A stretch of 64,000 nt of DNA from positions 124,001 to 188,000 of the forward strand of contig NZ_JAGIOP010000001.1 in NCBI RefSeq assembly GCF_017876775.1, written 5' to 3'. A model generated the notes under the pieces. The model was given only the letters and a program-made list of their open reading frames with translations, ran no database searches and was not told the DNA's origin. Made by a program: the position numbers and the translations under genes. This stretch comes from Mycolicibacterium lutetiense (GTDB taxonomy: Bacteria > Actinomycetota > Actinomycetes > Mycobacteriales > Mycobacteriaceae). Below, piece by piece: positions 38,111 to 57,928 of the stretch; position 1 is the first letter of the stretch, and every line of letters begins with the position of its first letter.

Positions 38111-38162
38111 GCCGGAGAGGTTACTACAACTAAGAGAGTGACTGGAGCGGTTCAACGAGAAA

Positions 38163-38204
38163 ACGCCGTGGCGGGTATCCGAGTTTGGATTCCCGCCACG
38201 GCGT
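38163..38204 (-). terminator. Intrinsic terminator downstream of the secreted peptide gene
   Basis: ACGCCGTGGCGGG (38163-38175) pairs perfectly with CCCGCCACGGCGT (38192-38204), continuing with ATCC/GGAT after one mismatch. On the minus strand the stem is followed by a T-run (GTTTTCTCG). It ends the 38224-38460 gene and isolates the thiolase operon. Confidence 0.75.
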
Positions 38205-38223
38205 CAACCGTGGTTAAGCCGAC

Positions 38224-38460
38224 TTAGTCGTCGCCGTGTCCGTGGCCGTGTCCGTGGCCACGCCCGCGCCAGTTGTCGCCGTACCAGGGGCGGGCCCATC
38301 CGGGACCCTCCGCGCAGGCGCTGACGTAACCGTACGGTCCGGTCGCGCAGATCTGAGGACCTGCCGAAGCCGGAGCGGCACCTGCCACTGCGACACCGAC
38401 CGGCACTGCCAACGCACCCAGCCCGACAGCAGCGGCCTTCATCAGTTTCGAACGGATCAT
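38224..38460 (-). CDS. Small secreted hypothetical protein
   Basis: This gene encodes 78 residues with a signal peptide: MIRSKLMKAAAVGLGALAVP then VGVAVAGAAPASA, with likely cleavage after ASA. The mature part has two Cys (QICATGPYGYVSACAEG), probably a disulfide, and ends in a GHGHGHGHGDD tail that could bind metal. GGAGGT lies four bases before the ATG. Similar short Gly/His-rich exported proteins are common in mycobacteria and have no known role. Confidence 0.75.
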   Translation of the reverse strand: MIRSKLMKAAAVGLGALAVPVGVAVAGAAPASAGPQICATGPYGYVSACAEGPGWARPWYGDNWRGRGHGHGHGHGDD

Positions 38461-38768
38461 TTGCACCTCCGGGTTGTTTGCTGAGTTCAAGCTCAAGACC
38501 CCCGTCTGTAGATAACATTAGTGCATCTCACGATGTTCCTGGGAGCCGCCTGGGATGCCACGGTGCAGCCAATTTGCTCTCATCGAAGCCTTCCCGGTCA
38601 GGGCGTTGAATTCATTTGCCAACGGAAATAGGGTTCCGTGGCGTCGCCCTGGAGTGTTGCCAGCTGGCCCGTGTGACACGCGTGTCGCGTGGTGCGAACG
38701 GCGATGTCGACGAGTTTTGCCGACGTTGGCGGTCTGTATCCAAGGACCGAACGACAGGAAGGGCAGGT
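38461..38768. other. Intergenic region between secreted peptide and SDR
   Basis: This is about 300 bases with no supportable gene. It is AT-richer near 38505-38525 (GTAGATAACATTAGTG), a likely promoter for the minus-strand peptide, and contains TGTGACACGCGTGTCGC near 38670, a short inverted repeat (GACACGCGTGTC) that could be an operator for the downstream SDR. Confidence 0.35.
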
Positions 38769-39587
38769 ATGGGAGCGCTGGACGGCAGGACGGCTTTGAT
38801 CACAGGGGGAGCGCGTGGGCAGGGGCGTGCACACGCCCTCACGCTTGCGCGTGAAGGCGCCGACATCGTGGTGTGCGACATCGCTGCGCCGGTCGAATCG
38901 GTCGAGTACCCGCTGCCCACGCCGGCCGACCTGGAACAGACCGTCGAGGAGGTGTCCGCGCTGGGTCGGCGCTGCCTGGCCGTGACCGCCGATGTCCGGG
39001 ATCTGGTGGCCATGCAGTCGGTGGCGGACGCGGCGGTCGCGCAGTTCGGCGGTTTCGACGTGGTGCTCGCCAATGCCGGGATCGCCAGCAGCGAGCCGAT
39101 CGCGACGATGTCCGAGCAGCGGTGGCAGACCATGATCGACATCAACCTGACCGGGGTGTTCAACACATTCCGGGCGGTGCTGCCGCATCTGATCGAACGG
39201 CGGGCGGGGCGCATCGTCGCGACCTCGTCGATCGTCGCGGGCACCGGCGCAACCAACTCGGGTCATTACGCAGCGGCCAAGGCCGGGGTGGTGGCGCTGG
39301 TGAAATCGGTGGCATTCGAGGTGGCCGAATACGGCATCACGGTCAACGCGGTGCTGCCGTCCGGGGTGAACACCCCGATGATCCACAACCCGCACACCTA
39401 CAAGGTGATCCGGCCCGACCTGGAGAACCCGGGCCGCGATGACGTCGAGGAGATGTTCGCTCAGGGGCGCCCCCGGCCTGGCCTGCTCGAGCCGCAGGAT
39501 GTCGCAGATGCAGTGCTGTACCTGGTGTCGGATCGCGGGCGGCTACAGACCGGCGAGTCGATGATCCTGTCGAACGGATTGAATTAG
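38769..39587 (+). CDS. Mycofactocin-type short-chain dehydrogenase
   Basis: This 272-residue SDR begins [49 protein letters not shown] and the insert [21 protein letters not shown] after the second strand are hallmarks of mycofactocin-dependent SDRs, which keep NAD bound and pass electrons to mycofactocin. Catalytic residues: TSSIVAGTG and HYAAAKAG. Ends [12 protein letters not shown]. Substrate is an unknown alcohol. It stands alone, with GACAGGAAGGGCAGGT before the ATG. Confidence 0.84.
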
Positions 39588-39700
39588 CCCGCGGGGCAAC
39601 GTGATGTGGTGCCGGCGGGCTGCTCCGTGTGAGAGCTCCTGGGCGAAACTGCACGGGCAAGTAACTTGCAGCCGAGCATCGCTTGAGGGTGGAGAGCGAG

Positions 39701-39719
39701 TACCCTATGGGGGTATTCT
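39701..39719 (+). promoter_or_regulatory. CsoR-like box A overlapping the rhodanese promoter
   Basis: TACCCTATGGGGGTAT (39701-39716) is a CsoR-type operator. It overlaps the -10 box TATTCT (39714-39719), which is exactly six bases before ATG 39726, so repressor binding would block a leaderless promoter. Confidence 0.55.
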
Positions 39720-39725
39720 TTCGGC

Positions 39726-40163
39726 ATGTTCACCAGGATGCGCATCGGTGCGCTGGCGGTCGTTGTCGCCGTGTCCCTGGCATCGTGTGGCTCAACGGCC
39801 GAGGCGCCGTCGGCCGCGCCTGCCGGATCGGGGACGGTGGGCGTTACCCTCCACCGGCTGGTAAGCCCTGACGAATTCGCCACTGCCATAGCCGAATCCG
39901 GCCGGGTGACGATCAACGTCCATGTGCCCTTCGAAGGGCGCATTGCCGGCACGGACCTGTCGATCCCGTTCGATCGGATTGTTGAGCAGGCTGACCGACT
40001 GCCCGCCGACCGCGGTGTGCCGATCGCGATCTACTGCCGAACCGGCCCCATGAGCGCGACAGCCGCCGAGACGCTGAGATCGCTCGGGTACACCGACGTT
40101 GTCGAACTCCAGGGCGGAATGAAGGCCTGGCAGGCCAGCGGACGACCGCTGGTGGCAAGTTGA
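39726..40163 (+). CDS. Rhodanese-like lipoprotein
   Basis: This 145-residue protein has a lipoprotein signal: RMRIGALAVVVAVSLASC with the lipobox LASC at residues ~15-18. The rhodanese domain has the active-site loop YCRTGPMS near residue 102 and GYTDVVELQGGMKAWQASGRPL, the family's terminal helix. It should be a membrane-tethered sulfurtransferase facing the periplasm. A CsoR/CstR-like operator overlaps its promoter, so it is likely induced by copper or persulfide. Copper-sensing CsoR is 1 kb downstream. Confidence 0.82.
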   Translation: MFTRMRIGALAVVVAVSLASCGSTAEAPSAAPAGSGTVGVTLHRLVSPDEFATAIAESGRVTINVHVPFEGRIAGTDLSIPFDRIVEQADRLPADRGVPIAIYCRTGPMSATAAETLRSLGYTDVVELQGGMKAWQASGRPLVAS

Positions 40164-40172
40164 GGGGTATGA

Positions 40173-40355
40173 CGAACTGAGGCGCTACTCGACACCATCG
40201 CGCTCGCCGACAAGCAGCAGTTGAGATTGCCCAAGGATCTGCTGCGTGACGTGCGGGCAGAATGCGAGCACCGGCTGTATTTTCGGCCTGAATCGAAAAT
40301 GCGCGCCCTCGTCGACGAAACCCTCAGGCGCGTCGAGCGACGCGCCGACGGCTGA
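40173..40355 (+). other. Open stretch with no good start, possible gene remnant
   Basis: A 60-codon frame is open up to TGA 40355 with coding-like composition (ALLDTIALADKQQLRLPKDL, then RDVRAECEHRLYFRPESKMR and VDETLRRVERRADG). The only near start is TTG 40221 (44 residues). It resembles the end of an unidentified helical, charged protein. The following 120 bases are AT-rich up to the tRNA. Confidence 0.3.
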
Positions 40356-40475
40356 GTCGATCTACGCGAGTGTCAAGGATCAGTCGACACCGATGTAAAG
40401 CATCAACCGAAACACTGTCAGTCATCAATCGAAGCCAAAACGTCAAGCATCACCCGAGATAATACAAACAAAGAG

Positions 40476-40548
40476 TGCCCCCGGCAGGATTCGAACCTGC
40501 GACACCGGCTTTAGGAGAGCCGTGCTCTATCCCCTGAGCTACGGGGGC
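40476..40548 (-). tRNA. tRNA-Arg(CCT)
   Basis: On the minus strand the acceptor GCCCCCG/CGGGGGC closes a full cloverleaf with D-arm GTAGCTCAGGGGATAGAGC, anticodon arm CGGCT-CTCCTAA-AGCCG and T-arm GCAGGTTCGAATCCTGC. The anticodon is CCT, reading AGG (Arg); discriminator base A. No CCA is encoded. Confidence 0.93.
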
Positions 40549-41114
40549 GGGGACCCGTCGAAATAGACCGATGGACGATTCATAATAGTCGGCCCATCGT
40601 CAGTCGGTGGCATGGGGCTGGCGTGAGGTGAAACTCGCGCCGTTGCCGTGCTCCAACAGGCCACCGACGGCTCGGGGCGGTGGAATTCGGCGACGGTGAC
40701 ATTTCGTTTCGGGTATCGAGATGGCGACGGCGCACGCAGCCAGCTGTTGAATGGGTCGCTCCAAGCGATCTGTGCCGGCGGTCCGAGATTAGTGAACTTG
40801 ATCGGTACCGGTGCTTTTGGCGCCAGTCGTGCACGGCGGGCTTCACGAGCTCGATTTGTCAACGAAGCCTCTGTCCTGGGTGGTTGTGGACGACCCCAAG
40901 GCGCCGGCAACCCCGCCGGCGCGGATGATTACCACACCCGCGGGCTAGGTAACATGGCCACGTGACGCTGGCCGACCTCTTGCGCTGTCCCTCGGTCATG
41001 GCCCCTCGGTGGTCATCGTTGGAGTGTGCAGTCGGTGATCGGTTACGACTTGGCCCTATCGGGGCGATCATTGCGGTCGAGGCTGCCCGGTAGGGAGGAA
41101 CGCCGGGAGGCTAA
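40549..41114. other. 566-base region without a supportable gene
   Basis: Several short frames run through here but none has a start, Shine-Dalgarno and family features together. CCCTATCGGGG near 41055-41065 weakly resembles the CsoR boxes and could autoregulate csoR. GGAGG at 41105-41109 serves the csoR ATG. Confidence 0.4.
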
Positions 41115-41405
41115 ATGGGAACCACGCACGGATACTCGGCGCAGAAGGAAAACCACGCTAAGCGGCTGCGCCGTATTGAAGGCCAGATTCGCGGCATCGC
41201 CAAGATGATCGATGACGACAAGTACTGCATCGATATCCTGACCCAGATCAGTGCGGCAAACCGGGCGATGCGCGCGGTCGCACTGAGCCTCCTCGATGAC
41301 CACCTGGACAACTGTGTGACCCGGGCGGCCTCTCGAGGCGGCGACGAGGCCAACGAGAAGCTGGCCGAGGCTTCCGCTGCCATTGCACGCCTCGTACGTT
41401 CCTGA
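41115..41405 (+). CDS. csoR: CsoR-family copper-sensing repressor
   Basis: This 96-residue DUF156 helical repressor is the sensor of the surrounding island. RLRRIEGQIRGIAKMIDDDKYCIDILTQISA is the family core. Cu(I) ligands are all present: Cys38, His63 and Cys67, with C-x24-H-x3-C spacing identical to the C36-H61-C65 triad of M. tuberculosis CsoR. A CstR persulfide sensor would lack the His. Copper binding should release it from DNA. GGAGG precedes the ATG. It stands 500 bases from the tRNA and has no cotranscribed gene. Confidence 0.9.
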   Translation: MGTTHGYSAQKENHAKRLRRIEGQIRGIAKMIDDDKYCIDILTQISAANRAMRAVALSLLDDHLDNCVTRAASRGGDEANEKLAEASAAIARLVRS

Positions 41406-41510
41406 ACGCTGCGGCACGATAGGGCTGGTCTCACTTCTCAACCCGTGTGAGGACTGCCGGGACGGCGCCACTCTGGCTCGGTGCATTGCGCACCGGGCCA
41501 AGCCATCGCC

Positions 41511-41951
41511 TCACCAGACCCAGACCGACATGTCGTCAGGGGGATAGTTCATGCAGACCGAGGTGGATGCAGCGGCGACGCCCTTGTTGTTGAAGAAGAT
41601 CTTGGCCCAGTTGGGCCAGTTCCAGGCCAGCTGTTCGTAGAAGGCGTTGGTGGCGGTGGCCTCGGAGTACTGACGCCGGCCGGCGTAGTCCATGGCAAAG
41701 AACCAATGGATGCGGTCCTGGACGGCGCGATGGACCTCGGAGGACTTGTTGTTGTAATCGATCATGTAGCGCTCGTAGTAGACCGGGTTGGTGTCACGGG
41801 TGGCGGCCAGGATTTGCTCGGCCGTGCACAGGGTGTGCAGGATTCTGCGCGGGATCGGGTAGTCCTCCGTCGAGTCGGCGGATGCGGTCGCTGGGGCGAG
41901 GATCAGGGTCGCGCCGAGCAGTGCGGCCAAGCTCAGCCTTTTGTGTTTCAT
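41511..41951 (-). CDS. Secreted DUF5078-family protein
   Basis: The 146 residues start with a signal peptide, MKHKRLSLAALLGATLILAP then ATASA. The mature part has TLCTAEQILAATRDTNPVYYERYMIDYNNKSSEVH and LAWNWPNWAKIFFNNKGVAAASTSVCMNYPPDD, with two Cys likely forming a disulfide. DUF5078 is found in mycobacteria and has no known role. It lies ten bases after the DUF732 gene in the same operon, facing csoR. Confidence 0.8.
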   Translation of the reverse strand: MKHKRLSLAALLGATLILAPATASADSTEDYPIPRRILHTLCTAEQILAATRDTNPVYYERYMIDYNNKSSEVHRAVQDRIHWFFAMDYAGRRQYSEATATNAFYEQLAWNWPNWAKIFFNNKGVAAASTSVCMNYPPDDMSVWVW

Positions 41952-41961
41952 TAGTGTTCCC

Positions 41962-42288
41962 CTACTGTTGGGTGAGCAGGACGCGCTTGTCCGGGCAGTA
42001 GTAATTCATTGCCGCACTGAGGAATTGGTAGGCTTGCTCAGTGCTGGAATCGCGCTGTAGTTGGTCGGCGACGAACTTGGCCGAGTCCCTGGCAGTGGCA
42101 TCGACGCCGCGGTCGAGGCGTTTGCAGGCGATCTTGCCAATCCAGGCGTTGGAGTCCCTCTGCCCGTAGATCCCGTGGCCGTGCAACTCCCTGGCGAAGT
42201 CGCTGTCGGGATCGGCCTGCGCAGGTGCCGCGGAGGCAAACACAGCCATACCGGCGAGCAACAGGGCCCATGTCTTCTTCAGCATCAT
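41962..42288 (-). CDS. Secreted DUF732-family protein
   Basis: The 108 residues start at ATG 42288 or the adjacent ATG 42285. The signal peptide is MLKKTWALLLAGMAVFASAA then PAQA. DPDSDFARELHGHGIYGQRDSNAWIGKIACKRLDRGVDATARDSAKFV and YYCPDKRVLL fit DUF732, a family of small exported mycobacterial proteins with two conserved Cys. Function unknown. It may share a promoter with the downstream DUF5078 gene. Confidence 0.82.
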   Translation of the reverse strand: MMLKKTWALLLAGMAVFASAAPAQADPDSDFARELHGHGIYGQRDSNAWIGKIACKRLDRGVDATARDSAKFVADQLQRDSSTEQAYQFLSAAMNYYCPDKRVLLTQQ

Positions 42289-42371
42289 CAACTCGTTTCT
42301 TGCGGAGGAGTTTCCGGCCGCCATCGGCTCGGACTTCGGCCACGACACCGCGGTGTGCTTTTGTCGAATGC

Positions 42372-42878
42372 TCAGGTGTGCAGGGTGTCGGTCTCCGGGT
42401 TGCTCGACCGCTGGCGCGCCGAAACGACTGCCTCGGACGGCACGACCATGGTTGGTCGTCTTGCGTGATGGAGGACGTTTACTGAGGTGCTACCGAGCAC
42501 GGCTGACCACAGCCCGCCGCGTCCGCGGGAGCCGAGAACGATTAGAGCTGCGTCGATTTCGTCGGCAGCCTGCACGATCGCCTCCGATGCGGTGGACATC
42601 CGGGACAGCACTCGTGGCTCGGCGTCCAAACCGGCGGCGCGCGCATACTCCGCGCCTTCGAACGCGATTCGTTCGGAGGCGTCGAGGCTGGCTTTTTCAA
42701 CGCCCCGAAGGTCCTCGAGGACGCGATGTCCCTCAAGGTGAGCAGCGAGGCCTTCCAACGGCTGGCGGGCATAGAGGACAATCGCTTGGGCGCCCGGGAG
42801 CAGCCTGGCAGTTTCTGTAATCGCCGTGCGCGCGTCAGGAGAGCCGTCGTAGGCGATGAGAAGACACGCTGTGGTCAT
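42372..42878 (-). CDS. Universal stress protein (UspA family)
   Basis: This 168-residue single-domain USP has the N-terminal LLIAYDGSPDARTAI and the ATP-binding signature LIVLGSRGRGGLWSAVLGSTSVNVLHHARRPTMVV (G-x2-G-x9-G-S/T) near residue 115. ATP-binding USPs are frequent in mycobacterial stress regulons. It follows the MFS gene by 45 bases in the same direction, so it is probably in the same copper-box transcript. Confidence 0.85.
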   Translation of the reverse strand: MTTACLLIAYDGSPDARTAITETARLLPGAQAIVLYARQPLEGLAAHLEGHRVLEDLRGVEKASLDASERIAFEGAEYARAAGLDAEPRVLSRMSTASEAIVQAADEIDAALIVLGSRGRGGLWSAVLGSTSVNVLHHARRPTMVVPSEAVVSARQRSSNPETDTLHT

Positions 42879-42923
42879 GGTGATCCTGTCTTTAGAGGTG
42901 TGGGGTTCGGATTGGTCGCACCT

Positions 42924-44366
42924 TCAGGCGTGGTCTGCAGCCGATTTGCCTTCGGTAACGGGACTTTCGAGCCGCGGTGTGCGGAGTGTCAGCGCAGCGA
43001 TCACTGCGCCCGCCAAGGCAATCAGACTGGCTCCCAGGAATGCGGACGAGAAGCCGTCAGTGAGCGCGGACGGGTCGCCGAGCTGGTCGGCACCGTACGA
43101 AGCGGCAACGGCAGTCATGGCCGCTAGGCCGAGTGCGGAACCGATCTGGTAGCTGGTGTTGACGATCCCAGACGCGAGGCCCCCCTCTTCGGGCCGGGCG
43201 GACGAGATGGCGGTTCCGAGCGAGGGGATGAAGGCGAGCGACATACCAAGGGCCGCCACGAGCGATGCGGGCAGCACGTCGGCCCAGTAGTTGCCATCCG
43301 GCCGGATGAGGGACAACCAACCCATGCCGATGGCGAGAATCACCAGTCCGGCCACGATCATTGCCTTGGGCCCGAAGCGGTTGATCGCTCGCGGTGCGAG
43401 GGCGATCATTCCGATCATGATGAGGAGGGTCATCGGCAGCAGGGCGGCACCGGACGGGAAAGCGCTGTAGCCGAGAACCTGCTGCAGGTACAGGTTCAGG
43501 AAGAACCACATCGGGATCCATGCACCGCCAAGCAGCAGCTGTGCGATATTGGCCGCACCCAGGTTCGGCGTACGGAAGATGGTCAGGCGCATCAATGGTT
43601 CACGACGGGATGCCTGCATTCCGACGAAGATTCCGAGAAAGACGACGGCGAGCGCGAGCACGCCCCACGTCTCAACTGAGTCCCATCCGATTTCCGGAGC
43701 CCGGACGATGGCGTACACCGCCGCGCCAAGACCTCCGGTGACCGTGAGTGCGCCCGATACGTCGACGGTGCCCCTCGCGCCGGTGCCGCCAGCCGGCATC
43801 AGCATCGGCACGGCGACCAGCGCGAGTACAGCGACTGGAATGTTGAGATAGAAGACCCATGGCCACGACATGTACTCGGTGATCACGCCGCCGAGAAACA
43901 CGCCCGCCGTGCCACCGGCCGGGGCCGCAGCGCCGTAAAGCGCGAGGGCCTTGGTCAGCTCCCGCGGGTCTGAACCGAAGAACATCATCAACAGAGTCAG
44001 GGCTGACGGCGCGATGAGAGCTGCGCCGGCCCCCTGCACGGCACGACCGGCGAGTTCGACGCCTACGTTGCCAGCGAGGCCGGCCACTGCAGATCCGACC
44101 AGAAGGATGACCCACCCCGCGCTGAACATCCGGCGAGCCCCGAAGAGGTCAGACAGTCGGCCGCCTAGTAAGAGCAGACCACCGAGTGCGACCACGTAGG
44201 CGTTGAACACCCAGGACAGATTCTCTTGCGAGAAGCCGAGGTCCTCCTGGATGCGGGGCAATGCGACACCAATGATCGAGGTGTCCATGATGACGATGAA
44301 CTGAGCTGTGGCGATCAATGCGAGCGCCCACCAACGTCGGGAGTGGGGCGGTGATTCGACTGACAT
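42924..44366 (-). CDS. DHA2-type MFS drug exporter (14 TM)
   Basis: ATG 44366 (MSVESPPHSRRWWALALIATAQFI) gives 480 residues; a longer start at 44402 is possible but covers the ribosome site. About 14 TM helices; FIVIMDTSIIGVALPRIQEDLGFS is motif D1 of DHA2 exporters, LLLGGRLSDLFGARRMF motif A, and GAAAPAGGTAGVFLGGVITEY motif C, which marks antiporters. Drug or metabolite unknown. CsoR-like box B overlaps its promoter 105 bases upstream, and an inverted repeat TTACC/GGTAA (44371-44375/44383-44387) covers the translation start region. Confidence 0.84.
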   Translation of the reverse strand: MSVESPPHSRRWWALALIATAQFIVIMDTSIIGVALPRIQEDLGFSQENLSWVFNAYVVALGGLLLLGGRLSDLFGARRMFSAGWVILLVGSAVAGLAGNVGVELAGRAVQGAGAALIAPSALTLLMMFFGSDPRELTKALALYGAAAPAGGTAGVFLGGVITEYMSWPWVFYLNIPVAVLALVAVPMLMPAGGTGARGTVDVSGALTVTGGLGAAVYAIVRAPEIGWDSVETWGVLALAVVFLGIFVGMQASRREPLMRLTIFRTPNLGAANIAQLLLGGAWIPMWFFLNLYLQQVLGYSAFPSGAALLPMTLLIMIGMIALAPRAINRFGPKAMIVAGLVILAIGMGWLSLIRPDGNYWADVLPASLVAALGMSLAFIPSLGTAISSARPEEGGLASGIVNTSYQIGSALGLAAMTAVAASYGADQLGDPSALTDGFSSAFLGASLIALAGAVIAALTLRTPRLESPVTEGKSAADHA

Positions 44367-44823
44367 TCCGTTACCTCGTACTGGTAATGGGTATACGGCC
44401 ATCGCTGGCCAGATACCGGGAGTTCGAAAAGGTTTGTGTTGGCGTCGATCACAACTCGTAGCAGGACACCGTAAAATACCCTACCAGGGTATGGTACCCA
44501 GGCAATAGCTGCTACCGGTGGACCCTGTTGCAAGTCATGCGAATGAAGTTGGGCCGCGCCACATACCGCGGGTAGGCCCAAAGACCTTGGTGCACTGATG
44601 TTCAGCTGGCCAGCGGCGTGCCGCATTCGAGCGCGACGGGGCTGACCGCAGTGGTCGGCAAGATGGTGGCTAGGCCGGACTGCCGGCCGAGAATCCGAGG
44701 GTAAGACCGTGACGGGCGCCAGTTTCAGTAGGGACACCATTTGTGTTCCCCGGCAAGCCGGGACGACGCACGACGTGCTCGGACTATCGTGTGTTGTTTT
44801 CGTTGTGCGGCTTTGCTTTTGGC
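44367..44823. other. 457-base gap holding the MFS promoter
   Basis: It contains the MFS control elements at 44371-44506 and then 300 bases with no supportable gene between box B and the EamA stop. Codon-like composition is present on the minus strand around 44620-44740, but no family is recognisable, so it may be decayed coding sequence. Confidence 0.4.
44477..44496 (-). promoter_or_regulatory. CsoR-like box B, MFS promoter
   Basis: TACCCTACCAGGGTATGGTA differs at one base from box C (TACCGTACCAGGGTATGGTA). On the minus strand it spans TAGGGT (44483-44478), a -10 preceded 16 bases earlier by TTGCCT (44505-44500). Each half is TACCNTACC. Binding here would block the MFS-USP transcript. Confidence 0.55.
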
Positions 44824-45867
44824 TTAGGACTGCTTGGGCGACGCAGTATGGCGGATTGCTGAGGCAGCTGCGTGGGTAGCCGGTGAGCCAGCGGGTGTCT
44901 GTGTGGTGCGCGGCTTGTCGAAAGTGAGGAGAACAACGCCGGTGCTGATGATTAGCAGTCCCAGCAACAGGGCTGGGGTTAGGGGTTCGCCGAGCCAACT
45001 CACCCCGAGTCCGGCGCCGGCCACCGGAACCAGGAGAGTAACGGTGGAAGCGGCGACGGGACCGGCGTGGCGGATGATCCAAAAGTAGAGCAGGTAGCCG
45101 CCTGCAGTGGCACCCAGTCCGAGCACCGCGACCGCCGTGATCGCCGCTGCTGTCACTGGTCCTGTCGGCGCCGCCGCCCAGGTGGCGCCCACGGTCACCG
45201 GAATCAACAAAAGGGTGGCGGCTACTTGCTGGCCCAGTGCCAGGGTCATCGGTGCGGTGTCAGGGAAGGCTCGGCGGGCATAGGTGCCGCCCAGGGCATA
45301 GGACAGTGCTGCGGCCAGGGATGCCGCCGCAGCCAGGGTGGTGCCGGTGCCTGACGGCAACGGCGCTCCGCTGAGCAGGATGACAACGCCAAAGACCCCC
45401 GCGGCGACACCGAGTGTCCGGCTCCAGGTAACCCGCTGACCGAGCCAGGCCGCTGCGACCAGGATGGTGAACATCGGGGTGGTGGCGTTCAGGATCGCTG
45501 CCATCGAGGCATTGAGCCCGACGATGGCGGTGGCCACCAGCGTCAGCGGGATCGCGACGTTGAGGGCGGCCAGCAGCGCAAATGCTCCGAATCGTTGGGG
45601 CACCCCGCGCCAGAGGCCGCGGCGGACGGCGGCGAGCAGGGCGAGCACGACCGCAGCCACCGCCAACCGGATGTGGGTCGTTCCAACAGGACCGAAAGCT
45701 GGTGCCGCGACCTTGATCAGCGGGAAGGCGCTGCCCCATAAGGCGCCAAGCACAAGCAGGGCGCCGAGGATCAGTGCCCAATGGGGCTTGCCGGCGGTGC
45801 CGGAGGTGGCACCGATGGCGCGACCGCCATGGCCTCCCGGCGAGGTGCTTGGGTGTGTTGTCGACAT
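44824..45867 (-). CDS. EamA/DMT-family transporter
   Basis: This 347-residue protein has ten TM helices in two EamA repeats: LGALWGSAFPLIKVAAPAFGPVGTTHIRLAVAAVVLALLAA with LNASMAAILNATTPMFTILVA (repeat 1) and LGGTYARRAFPDTAPMTLALGQQVAATLLL with AASTVTLLVPVAGAGLGVSWLGEPL (repeat 2). DMT exporters move amino acids, purines or other metabolites. The N-terminal HPSTSPGGHGGRA is His-containing. It starts nine bases after the stop of the 71-residue His-rich ORF, so both should be controlled by box C. Confidence 0.83.
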   Translation of the reverse strand: MSTTHPSTSPGGHGGRAIGATSGTAGKPHWALILGALLVLGALWGSAFPLIKVAAPAFGPVGTTHIRLAVAAVVLALLAAVRRGLWRGVPQRFGAFALLAALNVAIPLTLVATAIVGLNASMAAILNATTPMFTILVAAAWLGQRVTWSRTLGVAAGVFGVVILLSGAPLPSGTGTTLAAAASLAAALSYALGGTYARRAFPDTAPMTLALGQQVAATLLLIPVTVGATWAAAPTGPVTAAAITAVAVLGLGATAGGYLLYFWIIRHAGPVAASTVTLLVPVAGAGLGVSWLGEPLTPALLLGLLIISTGVVLLTFDKPRTTQTPAGSPATHAAASAIRHTASPKQS

Positions 45868-45876
45868 GTCAGCGTC

Positions 45877-46092
45877 CTAAGCCATTGGTGGTGCCGTGAT
45901 GAAGTCGGCTGTTCGCGACGGCAGGGGCGCGGTCGGCGCGGGTGCGCCGCTGTAGGAGAAGCCGACTGCAGTGCGCTGGACCACTGTCTGGCGCTCAATG
46001 CGCCGTATCCGCCGCACATAGTCCTCCTTGCGGTGGATGTGGTCGTGCGAGATGTGGTGTTCGCGGGCTTGCATCTGCTGCCTCTCGATCAT
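45877..46092 (-). CDS. Candidate small His-rich protein
   Basis: This is a 71-residue frame with high GC3, beginning MIERQQMQAREHHISHDHIH and continuing RKEDYVRRIRRIERQTVVQR, then a Pro/Ala-rich tail ending FITAPPMA. The HHISHDHIH segment (residues 12-20) could bind copper or zinc. It is 9 bases before the EamA transporter and downstream of box C on the minus strand. No family recognised. A second, overlapping frame (46019-45771) has a perfect AAGGAGGA ribosome site but shifted codon composition, so the choice of frame is uncertain. Confidence 0.45.
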   Translation of the reverse strand: MIERQQMQAREHHISHDHIHRKEDYVRRIRRIERQTVVQRTAVGFSYSGAPAPTAPLPSRTADFITAPPMA

Positions 46093-46148
46093 GGGCAGGG
46101 CCGTAGCCGTACCGCGACACCGTAAGCCTCCTATAGCATTACGGTACA

Positions 46149-46168
46149 TACCGTACCAGGGTATGGTA
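46149..46168. promoter_or_regulatory. CsoR-like box C, divergent promoter
   Basis: TACCGTACCAGGGTATGGTA lies between the minus-strand His-rich ORF/EamA pair and the plus-strand Cys-rich peptide. On plus, TATGGT (46162-46167) with TTACGG (46139-46144) 17 bases before makes a promoter; on minus, TACGGT can serve as -10. One operator could control both directions. Confidence 0.55.
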
Positions 46169-46213
46169 ATCGGAGACTGGCAGTGGCTTCGCCGCTCTTC
46201 GAAAGGACCTCGC

Positions 46214-46360
46214 ATGGGCACTATTCGTTCTTTTCTCATCGCCGTCGGGCGATCCACCACCACCCGGCGCGTCCTGCGTTGCGTAGCGACTTGCGCCGTC
46301 AACATCGTGGCGGCCGAGCGTCCGACGCAGGGTCATTGCTCGTCCGACAACTGCCGCTGA
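46214..46360 (+). CDS. Candidate 48-residue Cys-rich peptide
   Basis: ATG 46214 is preceded by GAAAGGA at a good distance. The peptide has four cysteines and a nearby His: RCVATC (Cys23, Cys27), GHC (His41, Cys42) and DNC (Cys47), i.e. a C-x3-C and HC-x4-C arrangement that could hold one Cu(I) or Zn(II). N-terminus MGTIRSFLIAVGRSTTTRRV is basic. No match to MymT or other known metallothioneins is visible. Downstream of CsoR-like box C with its own -10. Short, so it may be fortuitous; the operator, ribosome site and Cys pattern together support it. Confidence 0.4.
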   Translation: MGTIRSFLIAVGRSTTTRRVLRCVATCAVNIVAAERPTQGHCSSDNCR

Positions 46361-47162
46361 TCCGGGCCGGTGCGGTCGACGCGCCTGCACGACGTTGACT
46401 ACGAGGAGGATCGGCAGATGTTTCCCGGTCGGCCCAGACGCCTGACGAACATCGAGAAGTTAGCCGCCATCGCCAGGCCTCGACATGAAACCAGTCAAGA
46501 TGCTTGTCGCCCAACCTTTTGATGGCATCGCGGTGTCCAGTGGGCATCAACGCGGTCAGGCTTCCCTCGCCACGTTGGATTGTGAAACCGTGCTGTCAAA
46601 GTGAGCGAAGGCACCCTGGGCTGAGAGGGCGGTCGATGGCGCCGCAACCGATGGAGGGTGGCCGGGACGGACAAGTCGGCCGCCACGTTACCTCTCGTAT
46701 GCCACGATCGGTTGGCGGCAAACATCTCCACATGATACCCATACCGGGTATATGGCATCCTTCCTGCGATCGGAGAACAAGTCGGCTCCGGTTGTCAATC
46801 CACGCGTAAGGACCTGCCCCCGGCGCCTGAGGGTCCGGGAGCGGACTTCGGGTGACGAAGACTGTGGAAGAAGGTTGCCGCGTCATCGGCGGATTTGTGG
46901 CTGGATTGAACACTGTATCCGCCTTGCGGCGGGTCTTGTGCTCGATAACTATTTGTCTTGCAGCACAACGGTGTTCGGTGACAAGCCGGAAACTTACCTG
47001 CCTCCCGCTGGTGCGATGATTCTTGACCCTGGCGACGCGAATGGAGAGCCGCGCGCAGCCTTCTTCGGCTGGCATCGCCATCAACGTGGCCAAATGCCGT
47101 CGCAGTAATGGGTTGCGGGCAGATATGCATCTCACGGTGCGCGATTTCGAGGCTCACCCATA
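46361..47162. other. About 800 bases without a convincing gene; contains an orphan CsoR-like box
   Basis: Frames here are short, change strand and have mixed composition, as in decayed DNA. A 34-codon ORF at 46418-46522 has a good GGAGGA site (MFPGRPRRLTNIEKLAAIAR...) and may be a gene remnant. GC is lower around 46900-46990 (GATAACTATTTGTCTTGC). Confidence 0.35.
46736..46755. promoter_or_regulatory. CsoR-like box D (orphan)
   Basis: TACCCATACCGGGTATATGG matches the TACCC-x5-GGGTA pattern of the other boxes. No intact gene follows on either strand for several hundred bases, suggesting a copper-regulated gene was lost here. Confidence 0.45.
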
Positions 47163-47180
47163 TACTCCCTAGGGGTATGG
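47163..47180 (+). promoter_or_regulatory. CsoR-like box E upstream of mmpS
   Basis: TACTCCCTAGGGGTATGG has a perfect CCCTAGGG core and the GGGGTATGG right half shared with the copZ box. It lies 107 bases before the mmpS ATG, at a place that can cover a TATGGG -10. Confidence 0.5.
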
Positions 47181-47286
47181 GGTGTACGCTCCCGGCAGGC
47201 GGTGAAACACCATGGCGCCGGAGAACGGCGCGCCAAATACTGCTGTTGTTCACGTCGGTATGGCCGACGCATTGAAGGGACGAGAG

Positions 47287-47712
47287 ATGTTTAGGGTCGT
47301 GCAGCGAATATGGATACCAGTGGTGGTGGTGATGGTGGTCGCGATCGCAGTGTTCGCGGTATCGCGGTTGCAGGGGGTGGCCGGTTCGCCTGATCAGGTT
47401 CCGGGCGCCATCAGGGATGGATCTGAGCCCGTGATTCCCAAAGACGTGACGTATGAAGTGTTCGGTCCGGCGGGAACGACGGGCCAGGCTAACTTCCTCG
47501 ACGAGCATGCTCAGCCACAGCGCGCAGATTTCGCGACACTGCCGTGGTCGCACACCATCTCAACGAAACTGATGTCGGTTTTCGCGAATGTGGTCGCGCA
47601 GGGGGACAGCGGCACGCTTGGCTGCCGGATCACCGTCAACGGCGTGGTCCGCGACGAGCAGTCGGTGACCGCCCATAACGGCCAGGTGTTCTGCTTGGTG
47701 AAGTCCGCATGA
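47287..47712 (+). CDS. MmpS-family membrane protein (box E operon)
   Basis: ATG 47287 (MFRVVQRIWIPVVVVMVVAIAVFAVSRL) preceded by GAAGGGACGAGAG gives 141 residues, the normal MmpS length. One N-terminal TM, then the periplasmic beta-domain: VTYEVFGPAGTTGQANFLDE, ATLPWSHTISTKL, LGCRITVNGVVRDEQSVTAHNGQVFCLVKSA, with two Cys. MmpS proteins assist an MmpL in exporting siderophores or lipids. Its stop overlaps the mmpL ATG. Control by a copper-type box is unusual for MmpS. Confidence 0.87.
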   Translation: MFRVVQRIWIPVVVVMVVAIAVFAVSRLQGVAGSPDQVPGAIRDGSEPVIPKDVTYEVFGPAGTTGQANFLDEHAQPQRADFATLPWSHTISTKLMSVFANVVAQGDSGTLGCRITVNGVVRDEQSVTAHNGQVFCLVKSA

Positions 47713-50591
47713 GAACCGTCATGGCCGCTGCCAAGCCGTCCCGCGTCGCGTCGGCCATCCGCCGGGTGCCCGGACTGATGATCGTGGCGTGGCTGGTGGC
47801 GATGGTGGCGGTGAGCGTCGTTGTGCCGTCGCTCGAAAAGGTGGGGCAGGCGAACTTGGTCTCGCTGGCGTCCCAGGATGCGCCGTCCTACAAGGCGCTC
47901 AAGAAGCTGGGCGAAGAGTTCGATCAGTTCGGTTACGACAGCATGGTCATGGTGTTGCTGGAAAGCGATACCGAGCTCGGCGACGAGGCGCGCGACTATT
48001 ATCGCGGCCTGGTCGCTCAGTTCAAGGATGACCGTGAGCACGTCGACCACGTTCAGGACTTCTGGGGCGACCGCGTCACCGCGGGCGGGTCGCAGAGCAT
48101 GGACGGCAAGGCAGCCTATGTGCTACTGAATATGGTTGGCGACCAGGGGACTACGCCGGCCAAGAAAGCTGTCGAGTCGGTACGCGATATCATCGATCGA
48201 AGCAATCCGCCGTCCGGGCTGAAGGTCTACGTCACCGGTCCGGCCGCGCTCACGATGGACTTGAATTCCGCCGCTGACGATAGCCAGCTGATGATGACGT
48301 TGATCACCTTCGCGATCATCGCTCTCATCCTGTTGATCATCTATCGCTCCTTCGCGACGATGTTGCTCGTCACGATCACGGTCTTCGTCGAGCTCAGTGC
48401 CGCGCGCGGAGTGGTTGCCATCCTCGGGCATTACCAGGTCATGGAACTGTCGAACCTCGCGGTGAACCTGCTGACGATGCTGGGGATCGCGGCAGCTACC
48501 GACTACGCAATCTTCTTTCTCGGCCGATACCACGAGGCGCGAGCGGCCGGCCAGGATCGTATTGCGGCGTATTACACGACATATCACAGCGTTTCGCACG
48601 TCGTCCTCGGGTCGGGTTTGGCGATTGCGGGTGCGACGCTCTGCCTGACGTTCACCCGGCTGCCTTACTTCGCAGCGGTGGGTATTCCCAACGCCGTGGC
48701 CATGCTTGTCATCGTCGCCGCGGCACTCACGCTCACTCCGGCGGTGCTGCTGGTGGGCACCCGCTTCGGGTTGCTCGAATCGAAGCGCAAGATCAAGACT
48801 CGGGGATGGCGCCGGATCGGCACCGCCCTCGTGCGCTGGCCGGGACCGATTCTGGTCGTGACGATGATTGTCTCGCTGATCGGTCTAGGGGTGCTGCCGT
48901 CGTACACGGTCAACTACAACGACCGGTATTACGTCCCAGACAGGATGCCTTCCATTCAGGGCTATCAGGCGTCGGATAGGCATTTCTCGAAGGCCAAGAT
49001 GGACCCGGACATCCTGCTGATCGTGGCCGATCAGGATCTGCGCACCCCCGCCAACATGCTGATCCTGGACAGGATCGCGAGAAACATCCTCCGCGTCGAG
49101 GGAATCAACAAGGTGCAGAGCATCACTCGGCCCTTGGGGGCGCCGATCGACCACAGTTCGATCCCGTTCCAGGTGAGTATGCAGTCGGTGTCGATGACCG
49201 AGAACCTGCAGTTTATGAAGGACCGCATGAGCGACATGCTCGGGATGACCGACGAACTCGGTTCGATGATCCGCATCATGGAACGCATGCACGGCCTCAT
49301 GCAGCAACAGGCCGGCATCACCCACGACATGGTCGGCGATGCGAAGGACTTGCAGGCGACATCCGACGAAATGCGCGACCACATGGCCAATTTCGACGAT
49401 TTCTGGCGCCCGATGCGGAATTACCTGTACTGGGAACCGCATTGCGCCAACATCCCGATCTGTTTCTCGACGCGGTCGTTGTTCGACGGACTCGACGGGA
49501 TCGACAAGCTCAGCGAGAACATGGATTCGATGCTGGTCAATCTGGAGAGAATGGACGAGCTGATGCCGCAGCTGGTTGCCCAGTTGCCGCCGATGATCGC
49601 AATCTCCAAGAGCATCCAGTCCACCATGCTGACCATGCACAGCAGCTTCAGCGGGCTGATCGAGCAGATCAGTCGTATGACCGACACGGCGACCGTGATG
49701 GGTCAGGCCTTCGACGCCGCGAAGAACGACGACTACTTCTACCTGCCGCCGGAGGCCTTCGACAACGCGGACTTCCAGAAGGGCCTCAAGCTGCTGGTGT
49801 CACCGGACGGCAGGTCCGCGCAGATGATCATCACGCATGAGGGTGATCCGGCGGGACCTGAGGCGCTCGCCACGACGCCTGCGGAGCTGACTGCGGCGAA
49901 GGAAGCCATCAAGAGCACGCCGCTGGAGGGATCCGAACTCTATCTCGGCGGTACCGCCGCGACCTATCACGACATCGAGGAGTTCACGAAATACGACCTG
50001 ATGATCGTCGTGATCGCGGCGCTCAGTCTCATCTTGATCATCATGCTGGTCATGACGAGAAGCATCGTCGCGGCCACGGTGATCGTCGGAACGATCGCGA
50101 TCTCGCTGGGTTCGTCGTTCGGGCTCTCGGTGCTCTTGTGGCAGCACATTCTCGGCCAGCAGCTGCACTGGTTCGTGCTGCCGATCACGGTCATCATCTT
50201 GTTGGCGGTGGGATCGGACTACAACCTGCTGCTGGTGTCCCGGTTCAAGGAGGAGCTGCACGCCGGCCTGAACACGTCGATCATCCGCGGGGTCGCCGGT
50301 TCCGGGAGCGTGGCCACGCAGGCGGGTCTGGTGTTCGCGATCACCATGGGCTCGATGGTCACCAACGACCTGATCGCCATCGGTCAGGTGGGATCCGCGA
50401 TCTGTCTGGGCCTGTTGTTCGACACCTTCGTGATCCGCGCGTTCATGACCCCAACCGTTGCAGCGCTTTTGGGTCGCTGGTTCTGGTGGCCGATAAAGGT
50501 GCTTCCCACCTCGGCGATCAATCGGAGGGCTACGAAACCTAACGATTCCGCCGGCGAGGACACCACCGAGATCCCGGTTCCGGCTCGCTGA
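47709..50591 (+). CDS. MmpL-family RND transporter (box E operon)
   Basis: This 960-residue protein starts at an ATGA overlap. Topology is typical: TM1 near residues 17-38, a periplasmic domain, TM2-6 with the proton-relay pair in AAATDYAIFFLGRYHEAR, a second periplasmic domain rich in Met and His (NLQFMKDRMSDMLGMTDELG, then MIRIMERMHGLMQQQAG), and TM7-12 with VGSDYNLLLVSRFKEE. The Met-rich helix (about 25 Met between residues 495 and 670) resembles copper-binding Met clusters but is also seen in MmpL4/5-type helices. It resembles the MmpL4/MmpL5 siderophore group. Confidence 0.88.
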   Translation: MRTVMAAAKPSRVASAIRRVPGLMIVAWLVAMVAVSVVVPSLEKVGQANLVSLASQDAPSYKALKKLGEEFDQFGYDSMVMVLLESDTELGDEARDYYRGLVAQFKDDREHVDHVQDFWGDRVTAGGSQSMDGKAAYVLLNMVGDQGTTPAKKAVESVRDIIDRSNPPSGLKVYVTGPAALTMDLNSAADDSQLMMTLITFAIIALILLIIYRSFATMLLVTITVFVELSAARGVVAILGHYQVMELSNLAVNLLTMLGIAAATDYAIFFLGRYHEARAAGQDRIAAYYTTYHSVSHVVLGSGLAIAGATLCLTFTRLPYFAAVGIPNAVAMLVIVAAALTLTPAVLLVGTRFGLLESKRKIKTRGWRRIGTALVRWPGPILVVTMIVSLIGLGVLPSYTVNYNDRYYVPDRMPSIQGYQASDRHFSKAKMDPDILLIVADQDLRTPANMLILDRIARNILRVEGINKVQSITRPLGAPIDHSSIPFQVSMQSVSMTENLQFMKDRMSDMLGMTDELGSMIRIMERMHGLMQQQAGITHDMVGDAKDLQATSDEMRDHMANFDDFWRPMRNYLYWEPHCANIPICFSTRSLFDGLDGIDKLSENMDSMLVNLERMDELMPQLVAQLPPMIAISKSIQSTMLTMHSSFSGLIEQISRMTDTATVMGQAFDAAKNDDYFYLPPEAFDNADFQKGLKLLVSPDGRSAQMIITHEGDPAGPEALATTPAELTAAKEAIKSTPLEGSELYLGGTAATYHDIEEFTKYDLMIVVIAALSLILIIMLVMTRSIVAATVIVGTIAISLGSSFGLSVLLWQHILGQQLHWFVLPITVIILLAVGSDYNLLLVSRFKEELHAGLNTSIIRGVAGSGSVATQAGLVFAITMGSMVTNDLIAIGQVGSAICLGLLFDTFVIRAFMTPTVAALLGRWFWWPIKVLPTSAINRRATKPNDSAGEDTTEIPVPAR

Positions 50592-50721
50592 GTTCGTTCC
50601 GGTCCGGCCAGGGTACCTGCGGGCCCTGGCCGGTCAGCCAGCGGTTCGGATTGCTGATACGAGCGGAATTGATCTGGGGCACTGGTGATTACAGAGTGGT
50701 TTGCGCCAAACCACCTTGGAC

Positions 50722-50750
50722 GCCCCGGCCGTGAAACTCACGGCCGGGGC
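50722..50750. terminator. Strong hairpin after mmpL
   Basis: GCCCCGGCCGTGA (50722-50734) pairs perfectly with TCACGGCCGGGGC (50738-50750) around an AAC loop: a 13-base stem without a T-run, typical of mycobacterial terminators. It separates mmpL from the copZ operon. Confidence 0.7.
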
Positions 50751-50909
50751 GCGGCCATCGACTGTTGCACCAGGGACGGGTTACAAACGGCCATCCGCTT
50801 GAAACGCGATGCTCACCATCGCTTCTGTGACGGTGATCCGCGAGGGCCGATAACCGAACGTCATCTCGCACGGTAGGTCCATTGCCTCAGTCGTGCGCAC
50901 TTGACGAAA
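50751..50909. other. Intergenic, no supportable gene
   Basis: A 33-codon minus-strand frame (50880-50779, MDLPCEMTFGYRPSRITVTE...) is open but has no family features; it may be a remnant. Confidence 0.3.
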
Positions 50910-50959
50910 TACCTTACGGGGGTATGGTGGTGCTAGACCATATACCCCTGGGGGGTATA
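50910..50959 (+). promoter_or_regulatory. Two CsoR-like boxes (F and G) at the copZ promoter
   Basis: Box F, TACCTTACGGGGGTATGGT (50910-50928), nearly equals the Bacillus subtilis CsoR operator and sits in the spacer and -10 (TATGGT 50923-50928) of a promoter with TTGACG at 50901-50906. Box G (50941-50959) is a perfect palindrome TATACCCC-TGG-GGGGTATA just after the expected transcript start. Two operators give tight repression of copZ-copA. Confidence 0.7.
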
Positions 50960-50988
50960 ACGAAATACGTAAACGCGAAGGGAACTCT

Positions 50989-51198
50989 ATGACTACCACC
51001 ACGTACCAGGTGACCGGGATGACTTGTGGCCATTGCGAGGGAGCGGTCACCCGGGAAGTCAGCCAGGTGGCCGGGGTTGAGCGGATCGACATTTCCGCAA
51101 CCACCGGCAGGCTCTCGGTGACCAGCGCGGGCGAACTTGACGACGCCGCGGTCTTGGCTGCCGTCGAGGAAGCCGGATACAGCGGAGTGCGCGCCTGA
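50989..51198 (+). CDS. copZ: Copper chaperone CopZ-like (HMA domain)
   Basis: This 69-residue heavy-metal-associated protein begins YQVTGMTCGHCEGAVTREVS with Cys13 and Cys16 in the GMTCxHC copper site, and ends VLAAVEEAGYSGVRA, the usual HMA finish. It binds Cu(I) in the cytoplasm and hands it to the CopA pump two genes on. GAAGGGA precedes the ATG. One base separates it from the next gene. Confidence 0.92.
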   Translation: MTTTTYQVTGMTCGHCEGAVTREVSQVAGVERIDISATTGRLSVTSAGELDDAAVLAAVEEAGYSGVRA

Positions 51199-51199
51199 C

Positions 51200-52168
51200 A
51201 TGCGCGCACCGCTAAGACTCGGGTTGTACGTCGTAGCTCTGGTTGCGATATTCGTCGCCGGCTTCGTCGGGGCCCGAGCACTCATCCCCGCAGACGCATC
51301 CGCGTCGTGGAAAAGACAAACGGAGGCAACACAAATGGATCACGGAGCACACAACCACGCCGGCACCTCAGGATCGCACTCGTCGGCTGAGATGCCGGGC
51401 CTGTCGATCGAACGTAGCGGGTATCAGATCCGCGACGTGGCAGCACCCGACGTAGTCGGAGAGGACGGCACGCTGTCGTTCCGATTGACCGGCCCCGGCG
51501 GCGTTGCGCTCACCGAGTACGACACCGCCCACGACAAAGACCTCCACCTGATCGTCGTCCGTAACGACGGCGCCGAATTCCGGCACGTGCACCCCCACAA
51601 CGACGGTGACGGCCGATGGTCGATGCCGTGGCGGTGGAATGCGGCAGGCTCCTACCGAATCTTCGCCGACGTCGTTCCCACCGATCTTGGCAGCAACGTG
51701 ACGCTGACCTCGACCACGTCGGTCGCCGGCGACTTCGTGCCGAGGCCGCTGCCGCCGGACTCCACCGTCGCCACCGTCGGCGATCTCACCGTCACCCTCG
51801 ACGGATCGCTCGGCGTCGGCACAAGCTCGACCCTGACGTTCACCGTGACCCGCGCGGGGCAGCCGGTGGATACGCTCGAACCATATCTTGCCGCCTACGG
51901 GCACCTGGTGGCGCTGCGCGTCGGTGACCTCGGGTACCTGCACGTGCACCCGATGGGGGAGCCCGGTGACGGAGTCACCCAGCCCGGTCCCGACATCGAG
52001 TTCATGGCATCCGCGCCCACCGACGGCACGTACCTGCTGTACCTGGACTTCAAGGTCGATGGACAGGTCCGCACCGCAGAGTTCACGGTCACCGCGGCAC
52101 CGGCCGCGGCTCCCGGCAATGCCACCGCCGGCTCGCCCGAGCACGGACACGCCGGCGCCGGTCACTGA
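51200..52168 (+). CDS. Membrane-anchored His-rich exported copper-island protein
   Basis: ATG 51200 gives 322 residues. One N-terminal TM (LRLGLYVVALVAIFVAGFVGA) is followed by a Met/His segment MDHGAHNHAGTSGSHSSAEM, then two beta-sandwich-like repeats with DKDLHLIVVRNDGAEFRHVHPHNDGDGRWSM and GHLVALRVGDLGYLHVHPMGEPG. The tail is SPEHGHAGAGH. Three His clusters (HNH, HVHPH, HVHP) suggest extracytoplasmic copper binding. Genes of this type are often found between copZ and copA in actinobacteria and lack an assigned function. Confidence 0.78.
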   Translation: MRAPLRLGLYVVALVAIFVAGFVGARALIPADASASWKRQTEATQMDHGAHNHAGTSGSHSSAEMPGLSIERSGYQIRDVAAPDVVGEDGTLSFRLTGPGGVALTEYDTAHDKDLHLIVVRNDGAEFRHVHPHNDGDGRWSMPWRWNAAGSYRIFADVVPTDLGSNVTLTSTTSVAGDFVPRPLPPDSTVATVGDLTVTLDGSLGVGTSSTLTFTVTRAGQPVDTLEPYLAAYGHLVALRVGDLGYLHVHPMGEPGDGVTQPGPDIEFMASAPTDGTYLLYLDFKVDGQVRTAEFTVTAAPAAAPGNATAGSPEHGHAGAGH

Positions 52169-52195
52169 CCGGCAGCACGAGGAAGGACTGATCAC

Positions 52196-54502: not shown

Positions 54503-54627
54503 AAGTGCGTTCACCGGTGGCGGCCGGGGCTGCCCTGACACTTCGGCCCCTTCTGTGACCGGGCCCCGATCGCCAGCATCCCCGAGCCATAGGGTTCGGG
54601 CACCGGGTACAGGTCGGGGGCGCGCAC

Positions 54628-57873: not shown

Positions 57874-57928
57874 CGAGCGTCCCTCGCCCTCGTGTTCGCG
57901 CGCATCACATCATCAATATCTGAAGCAA
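57874..57928. promoter_or_regulatory. Short divergent promoter region of emb-like gene and TetR
   Basis: Only 55 bases separate the two starts, so a TetR dimer here would cover both promoters. CATCACATCATCAATATCTG (57902-57921) is AT-richer than its surroundings and is the likely promoter/operator zone. No clear palindrome is visible. Confidence 0.35.

Follow-up and report, generated by a model that had tools for sequence, protein, structure and literature searches.

The window analysed here, a 64-kb stretch of DNA (G000:C1:124001-188000) from a 6.35-Mb assembly of three contigs, contains an island with genes for a rhodanese-domain lipoprotein, a CsoR-family repressor (RicR2), an MFS exporter followed by a universal stress protein (USP), an EamA-family transporter, a short cysteine-containing peptide (CysPep), an MmpS/MmpL pair and a copZ-copA operon, among which seven copies of one palindromic box were found (Table 1). 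Family models match both partners of the MmpS/MmpL pair, whose genes are adjacent, and the solved structures closest to the island MmpL are MmpL4 (PDB, 1193.5 bits) and then MmpL5. The MFS exporter is assigned to the DHA2 type by resemblance only, because its TIGR00711 score lies below the cut-off. A homologue of the rhodanese lipoprotein (54%) lies beside a boxed copZ gene at C2:396 kb. A second copper cluster was observed at C2:388000-402000. Its boxed copZ is accompanied by genes for a rhodanese lipoprotein, a DUF1942 protein, an MFS protein and a cysteine-synthase-like product, and the cluster resembles the segment lpqS-cysK2-Rv0849 of the M. tuberculosis RicR regulon. The window also encodes a DUF5078 protein (41511-41951) and a DUF732 protein (41962-42285) on the minus strand, and relatives of one or both were found near mmpS-mmpL at three other loci (L100, L102 and L107), which suggests that these families may be recurrently linked with MmpS/MmpL. 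A tRNA-Arg(CCT) gene at 40475 sits between the rhodanese gene and ricR2. None of the tRNA-Arg(CCT) loci in 14 other genus genomes (0/14) had the neighbouring genes of the window within up to 1.5 kb per side, but insertion of the island at this gene is not claimed, given the position of the tRNA inside the island and the fact that the only repeats of at least 20 nt in 38000-58000 were the boxes and one local palindrome.

Table 1. Features of the island and box positions elsewhere in the genome (positions are those of the window unless a contig, C1 or C2, is given)
Feature	Position	Strand	Remarks
RicR-type box	39700-39716	+	GTACCCTATGGGGGTAT; 9 bp 5' of the rhodanese lipoprotein gene
Rhodanese-domain lipoprotein, 145 aa	39726-40163	+	PF00581 E 1.1e-10; lipoprotein call by eye
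RicR2, CsoR-family repressor, 96 aa	41115-41405	+	NF052430.1 176.2 bits, cut-off 175
Universal stress protein	42372-42878	-	3' of the MFS gene; PF00582 E 2e-21
DHA2-type MFS exporter, 492 aa	42924-44402	-	PF07690; TIGR00711 207.2 bits, cut-off 230.2
RicR-type box	44476-44492	-	ATACCCTACCAGGGTAT; 5' of MFS-USP (putative)
EamA-family transporter, 347 aa	44824-45867	-	PF00892 E 4.2e-30
Truncated CsoR-family relic ("His-rich ORF")	45877-46092	-	15/30 residues match the N-terminus of the G191 CsoR-family protein
RicR-type box	46148-46164	.	ATACCGTACCAGGGTAT; between the divergent relic-EamA unit and CysPep
CysPep, 48 aa	46214-46360	+	C-x3-C-x14-C-x4-C; conserved in relatives
RicR-type box, orphan	46735-46751	.	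ATACCCATACCGGGTAT
RicR-type box	47162-47178	+	ATACTCCCTAGGGGTAT; 5' of mmpS-mmpL
MmpS-family protein, 141 aa	47287-47712	+	ATG at 47287; PF05423 E 1.4e-45
MmpL transporter	47709-50591	+	TIGR00833 950.6 bits, cut-off 874.7; PF03176
RicR-type box 1, copZ promoter	50909-50925	+	ATACCTTACGGGGGTAT; in spacer, overlaps predicted -10
RicR-type box 2, copZ promoter	50942-50958	+	ATACCCCTGGGGGGTAT
CopZ-like copper chaperone, 69 aa	50989-51198	+	NF047957.1 E 2.1e-16, 60.1 bits, below cut-off 85
copZ-copA operon protein, 322 aa, no family	51200-52168	+	hydrophobic N-terminus by eye; kept in relatives
CopA-type copper P-type ATPase, 768 aa	52196-54502	+	TIGR01511 540.3 bits, cut-off 397
Boxes outside the island at copper genes or ricR	C1:707648; C2:396135, C2:396167; C2:411160, C2:3574333; C2:3114780		copZ; copZ; copper ATPases; ricR
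Boxes without an evident copper gene	C2:562554, C2:1285002, C1:818476, C1:1257771, C2:1694470, C2:3148211		not called functional

Measured against the pattern ATACCC-N5-GGGTAT, three of the seven island boxes are perfect and four carry one mismatch. All seven CsoR-like operators claimed in the initial annotation are therefore present with at most one mismatch each, the last coordinate being off by 1-2 bases. The seven boxes are genuine and their number is far above chance: none occurred when the 11.3-kb stretch was dinucleotide-shuffled 400 times, and shuffling of the intergenic DNA (3.1 kb, n=2000) gave a mean of 0.005 boxes and a maximum of 1. When up to two mismatches were allowed, the 64-kb window yielded the same seven boxes only, compared with 0.89 (sd 0.97, largest 4) in the shuffles. 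At the copZ promoter, box 1 lies between the predicted -35 element TTGAC and the predicted -10 element TATGGT. The overlap with a -10 box that had been noted for most of the sites is clear at copZ, and on the plus strand a TANNNT motif (a predicted -10) stands directly 3' of the box at four of the seven, as counted by eye. The boxes at 46148 and 44476 were assigned to their putative target genes from gene order.

Four genomes carrying the island were compared, namely that of the window and those of Mycolicibacterium peregrinum (L096), M. houstonense (L097) and G191 (L089), the two named species carrying the island's closest named counterparts, so that the host most likely belongs to the M. fortuitum group; G021 (L088) and G230 (L090) are apparent duplicates of the M. 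peregrinum/M. houstonense assemblies. CysPep, which has no Pfam match, shares 65-83% identity with its counterparts in the three relatives, and its four cysteines are invariant in the four genomes. Its pairwise differences by codon position 1/2/3 amount to 52/46/92, highest at the third. A search of 248 genus genomes gave matches in 7, of which one is the window's own and three are weak, and a 5.8-billion protein set contained six matching proteins, one being identical to the M. peregrinum protein and five of the six having all four cysteines. In G191, CysPep is encoded between the MFS and USP genes on the same strand. In each of the three relatives an AhpD/CMD-like gene (PF02627) follows downstream, its place in G191 being behind USP; a tblastn search for it in the window gave a best E of 0.81.

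Two small features of the initial annotation had to be redefined. The first, a small His-rich ORF next to the EamA gene, has no match by Pfam alone but matches a full-length member of the CsoR family encoded at the corresponding pre-EamA place in G191 (E 3e-8, in a single comparison). Because it is without the Cu triad and most of the fold, this ORF is a relic, the remaining N-terminal part of a CsoR-family gene. The second, a cysteine-rich peptide placed behind the orphan box (position 46736 in that annotation), corresponds to orf46752, which is unconserved (its best match in 10 related loci, those of the three relatives with the island among them, had E 0.097); the conserved cysteine-rich peptide is CysPep. 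The orphan box itself has counterparts at L096:9189, L097:9022 and L089:12855. Two candidates for a target behind it were rejected: by eye, no reading frame of a hidden peptide is conserved in the four genomes, and a small RNA found no Rfam match and only a weak consensus fold (-3.0 kcal/mol). Across 39500-51100, Rfam returned only the tRNA and, on the strand opposite to it, a match below threshold.

In the whole genome, boxes with at most one mismatch were found at 19 places, nine of them perfect, and the pattern read backwards was found at none. A looser pattern, TACCY-N5-GGGTA, was unclean, giving 15 forward and 12 reverse matches versus 6 and 6 for the backward control. Besides the seven places in the island, six precede copper genes or ricR and six have no evident copper gene. 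One of the latter, the one-mismatch box at C1:1257771, lies 129 bp 5' of a gene for the HrcA heat-shock repressor (TIGR00331 292 bits, cut-off 197), where chance is a possible explanation. One palindromic box is common to dispersed promoters that include those of ricR and of copper pumps, the arrangement that defines a RicR regulon; the label "RicR-type" used here rests on this gene link. Across the genus, 246 of 248 genomes contain perfect boxes, whereas the backward control gave counts above zero in 6 of them. The highest perfect-box counts per genome are 13, 12 and 11, compared with nine in the window's genome, so a large regulon is unusual, not unique. Among 30 RicR loci, a non-random sample consisting of the best matches to RicR2, 17 have a box (at most one mismatch) within 200 bp upstream of the LRRxEGQ motif and an 18th has one at 358 bp; the 13 loci without a box within 200 bp comprise all five of the island type and 8 of the 25 others. 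In G180 (L091) and G078 (L095), a RicR-type gene was observed among boxed copper-ATPase-like genes, in a different copper cluster of similar plan.

The repressor gene of the island had been described as a single CsoR with the Cys-His-Cys copper triad. The triad is present (C38-H63-C67, aligned to the solved CsoR 4adz), but the protein fits the NCBIfam RicR model, although it passes narrowly (Table 1), and it is not the only one of its family, since the genome has three CsoR-family genes. Canonical ricR is located at C2:3114477, adjoining ilvD (TIGR00110 710.8 bits, cut-off 618); its product passes the RicR model with 192 bits (cut-off 175), and its promoter carries the box GTACCCCACCGGGGTAT (C2:3114780). 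RicR2 shares 78% identity with canonical RicR over 92 aa. No box with at most one mismatch was found within 400 bp upstream of its LRRxEGQ motif, where one would be expected for autoregulation, and RicR2 was therefore filed as a paralogue rather than an orthologue of RicR, which has a box of its own. The third gene, at C1:1220263, encodes a protein whose triad is without the histidine, and adjoins a sulfate-ABC-transporter ATPase gene (TIGR00968). In the genus, RicR-like matches at E<=1e-15 were found in 243 of 248 genomes, with two or more in 64 (hand count); CsoR instead of RicR may account for part of these.

We propose, with a probability of roughly 85%, that the island belongs to a RicR regulon spanning the genome and that its boxes are controlled by RicR-type repressors. 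At low copper, these repressors would bind ATACCC-N5-GGGTAT at each promoter and block transcription, the bound repressor at copZ occupying the spacer and the -10 element. Binding of Cu(I) to the Cys-His-Cys triad would release them, and copper would thereby turn on copZ-copA, mmpS-mmpL, MFS-USP, EamA, CysPep and the rhodanese lipoprotein together. Canonical RicR and RicR2 probably bind the same sites, because in the N-terminal helix region only 5 of 40 residues differ between them, four of these conservatively. Counting against the RicR reading are the narrow pass of RicR2 on the family model, the 13 of 30 RicR loci that are unboxed, the 6 of 19 places without a copper gene, and the orphan boxes. 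The multi-operon copper response suggested by the initial annotation thus looks sound in outline, with a RicR-type repressor in place of a lone CsoR.

It is also possible, though rather unlikely, that regulation is split, with canonical RicR serving the core copper genes and RicR2 dedicated to the island at a different copper set point. The four island RicR2 proteins (those of G191, M. houstonense, M. peregrinum and the window) group together in a 32-row tree with a support of 90/87 and sit in the same islands, and the island ricR2 genes are unboxed, whereas 17 of the 25 other RicR loci are boxed within 200 bp. However, the arms are the same in the boxes inside and outside the island, the differences in the N-terminal region are few and mostly conservative, and the remaining eight of the 25 loci are unboxed as well. 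Moreover, G180 RicR falls outside the island group in the drawn tree, and the island type together with G180 forms one group in only 11% of the bootstrap trees, from a bootstrap that had not settled; a single origin of island-type RicR2 including G180 may nevertheless apply.

Less probable still is that only copZ-copA and a few other sites are active, the other boxes being neutral palindromes or leftovers of island rearrangement. The orphan box without a conserved target and the decay of one island CsoR gene are consistent with this, but the conservation of the boxes argues against it. In ungapped alignments on the box, covering two, three or four genomes per site, invariant positions over all boxes amounted to 81/84 in the arms, 16/35 in the spacer and 131/420 in the flanks. 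The footprint is sharpest at the orphan box itself, with 12/12 arm positions and 1/60 flank positions invariant in four genomes; the values at copZ box 2 are 12/12 for the arms and 7/60 for the flanks (four genomes). At the mmpS box (arms 12/12, flanks 22/60), the ATACTC variant itself is kept in 4/4 genomes, which likewise speaks against neutrality. At copZ box 1 (arms 11/12, flanks 18/60), TTGAC and TATGGT are kept in 4/4 genomes, and the position of the box between and over the predicted -35 and -10 elements is the layout expected of a repressor site. The MFS-USP box has all 17 bases the same in three genomes (flanks 19/60), and the box at 46148 has 10/12 arm and 21/60 flank positions invariant (three genomes). 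The footprint at the rhodanese box is weak, because the flanks are also conserved (43/60, arms 12/12) and two genomes only, those of the window and M. houstonense, could be aligned.

The sites also keep their genes. In M. peregrinum and M. houstonense, boxes precede copZ (two) and mmpS, as well as MFS, and lie in the gap between the relic-EamA unit and CysPep and at the place of the orphan box. The rhodanese box recurs in M. houstonense, not in M. peregrinum, in whose stretches no match to the rhodanese lipoprotein was found. In G191, where the island is rearranged, boxes still stand 5' of EamA and MFS, of mmpS and of copZ and at the orphan place, and two further boxes (L089:6001 and 6025) have no assigned gene. 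The idea of one CsoR-family operator type repeated through the island is thereby borne out for at least five promoters in 11 kb, with sites kept in relatives.

CsoR-family paralogues can share GC-rich operators, and the boxed rhodanese gene together with the sulfate-transport gene adjoining C1:1220263 might hint that the boxes belong to this third protein, perhaps a persulfide-type sensor with the rhodanese as client; this is very improbable, however, since the protein reaches 42 bits on the RicR model against a cut-off of 175, no box with up to two mismatches was found in the surrounding 15 kb, and the boxes accompany copper pumps and ricR.

The preferred reading, control by RicR-type repressors, has its closest parallel in the M. 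tuberculosis RicR regulon. According to excerpts of the papers cited here, RicR keeps several loci repressed when copper is low, and Cu(I) releases it (PMC10470581, PMC10961391); it acts on five loci or operons, or six promoters (PMC10470581, PMC10141476, PMC9048740), and its clients include lpqS (lipoprotein), mymT (metallothionein), socAB (small ORFs), Rv2963 (permease), Rv0849 (transport protein), mmcO (multicopper oxidase), cysK2 and ricR (PMC10470581, PMC10961391, PMC10141476). A CsoR-family Cu(I) repressor, here a predicted one, and several dispersed promoters are common to both systems, and with lpqS, Rv2963/Rv0849 and socAB among the clients in these excerpts, the transporter, lipoprotein and small-ORF clients of the island have precedents. 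Different from the M. tuberculosis regulon, seven boxes are gathered here in 11 kb, and a second RicR without a box is present. M. tuberculosis CsoR, in the excerpted sources, controls a single four-gene operon (PMC9048740, PMC4801387); the island protein shares its family and the C-H-C triad, but fits RicR instead. The contrast drawn in the initial annotation, that known CsoR regulons comprise one or two operons, consequently loses its force, since the island protein is of the RicR type, for which multi-operon control is already described in those excerpts.

MmpS/MmpL, EamA, the universal stress protein and the rhodanese lipoprotein are absent from the RicR client lists in the excerpts of PMC10470581, PMC10961391 and PMC10141476, and the literature on RicR, MmpL and mycobacterial copper, as far as its excerpts extend, reports no RicR-controlled MmpS/MmpL. 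The nearest precedent for a copper role of such a pair is TbD1 mmpS6-mmpL6 in M. bovis, where, in the excerpted account, a mutant phenotype, not RicR control, links the pair to copper tolerance under hypoxia (PMC9048740). In named genomes, 10 of 12 related mmpL loci have no box (at most one mismatch) in the stretches of DNA analysed, the exceptions being M. peregrinum and M. houstonense, so that no mmpS-mmpL pair outside the four island genomes was seen with a box. At one related locus, in M. genavense (L104), the MmpL gene was observed between a segment resembling the CopA metal-binding N-terminus and a CopA-like gene, with no box of RicR type. The mmpS leader of about 110 nt (47179-47286) is far better conserved than the DNA 5' of its box. 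A regulatory hairpin in this leader was considered and rejected; it appeared in 3/4 single folds, but the z values were -0.37, -0.57, -0.38 and +1.22, and 1 of 29 pairs showed a two-sided change.

The island is real and well conserved, and what makes it notable is the set of unusual apparent clients together with the second RicR without a box. A tentative extension, which we consider more doubtful than the regulon itself and on the whole unlikely, is that unboxed RicR2 travels with the island and puts the MmpL4-like MmpS/MmpL pair under copper control, that the pump exports copper, lipids damaged by it or a molecule that binds it, and that CysPep is an accompanying Cu(I) binder. If the boxed genes do respond to copper, mycobacterial copper defence would gain an RND-type MmpL pump and genes absent from the client lists of PMC10470581, PMC10961391 and PMC10141476, as excerpted. 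Such a response would give an MmpL4-like pair a concrete role and would suggest that RicR regulons grow via acquired islands that bring their own spare repressor.
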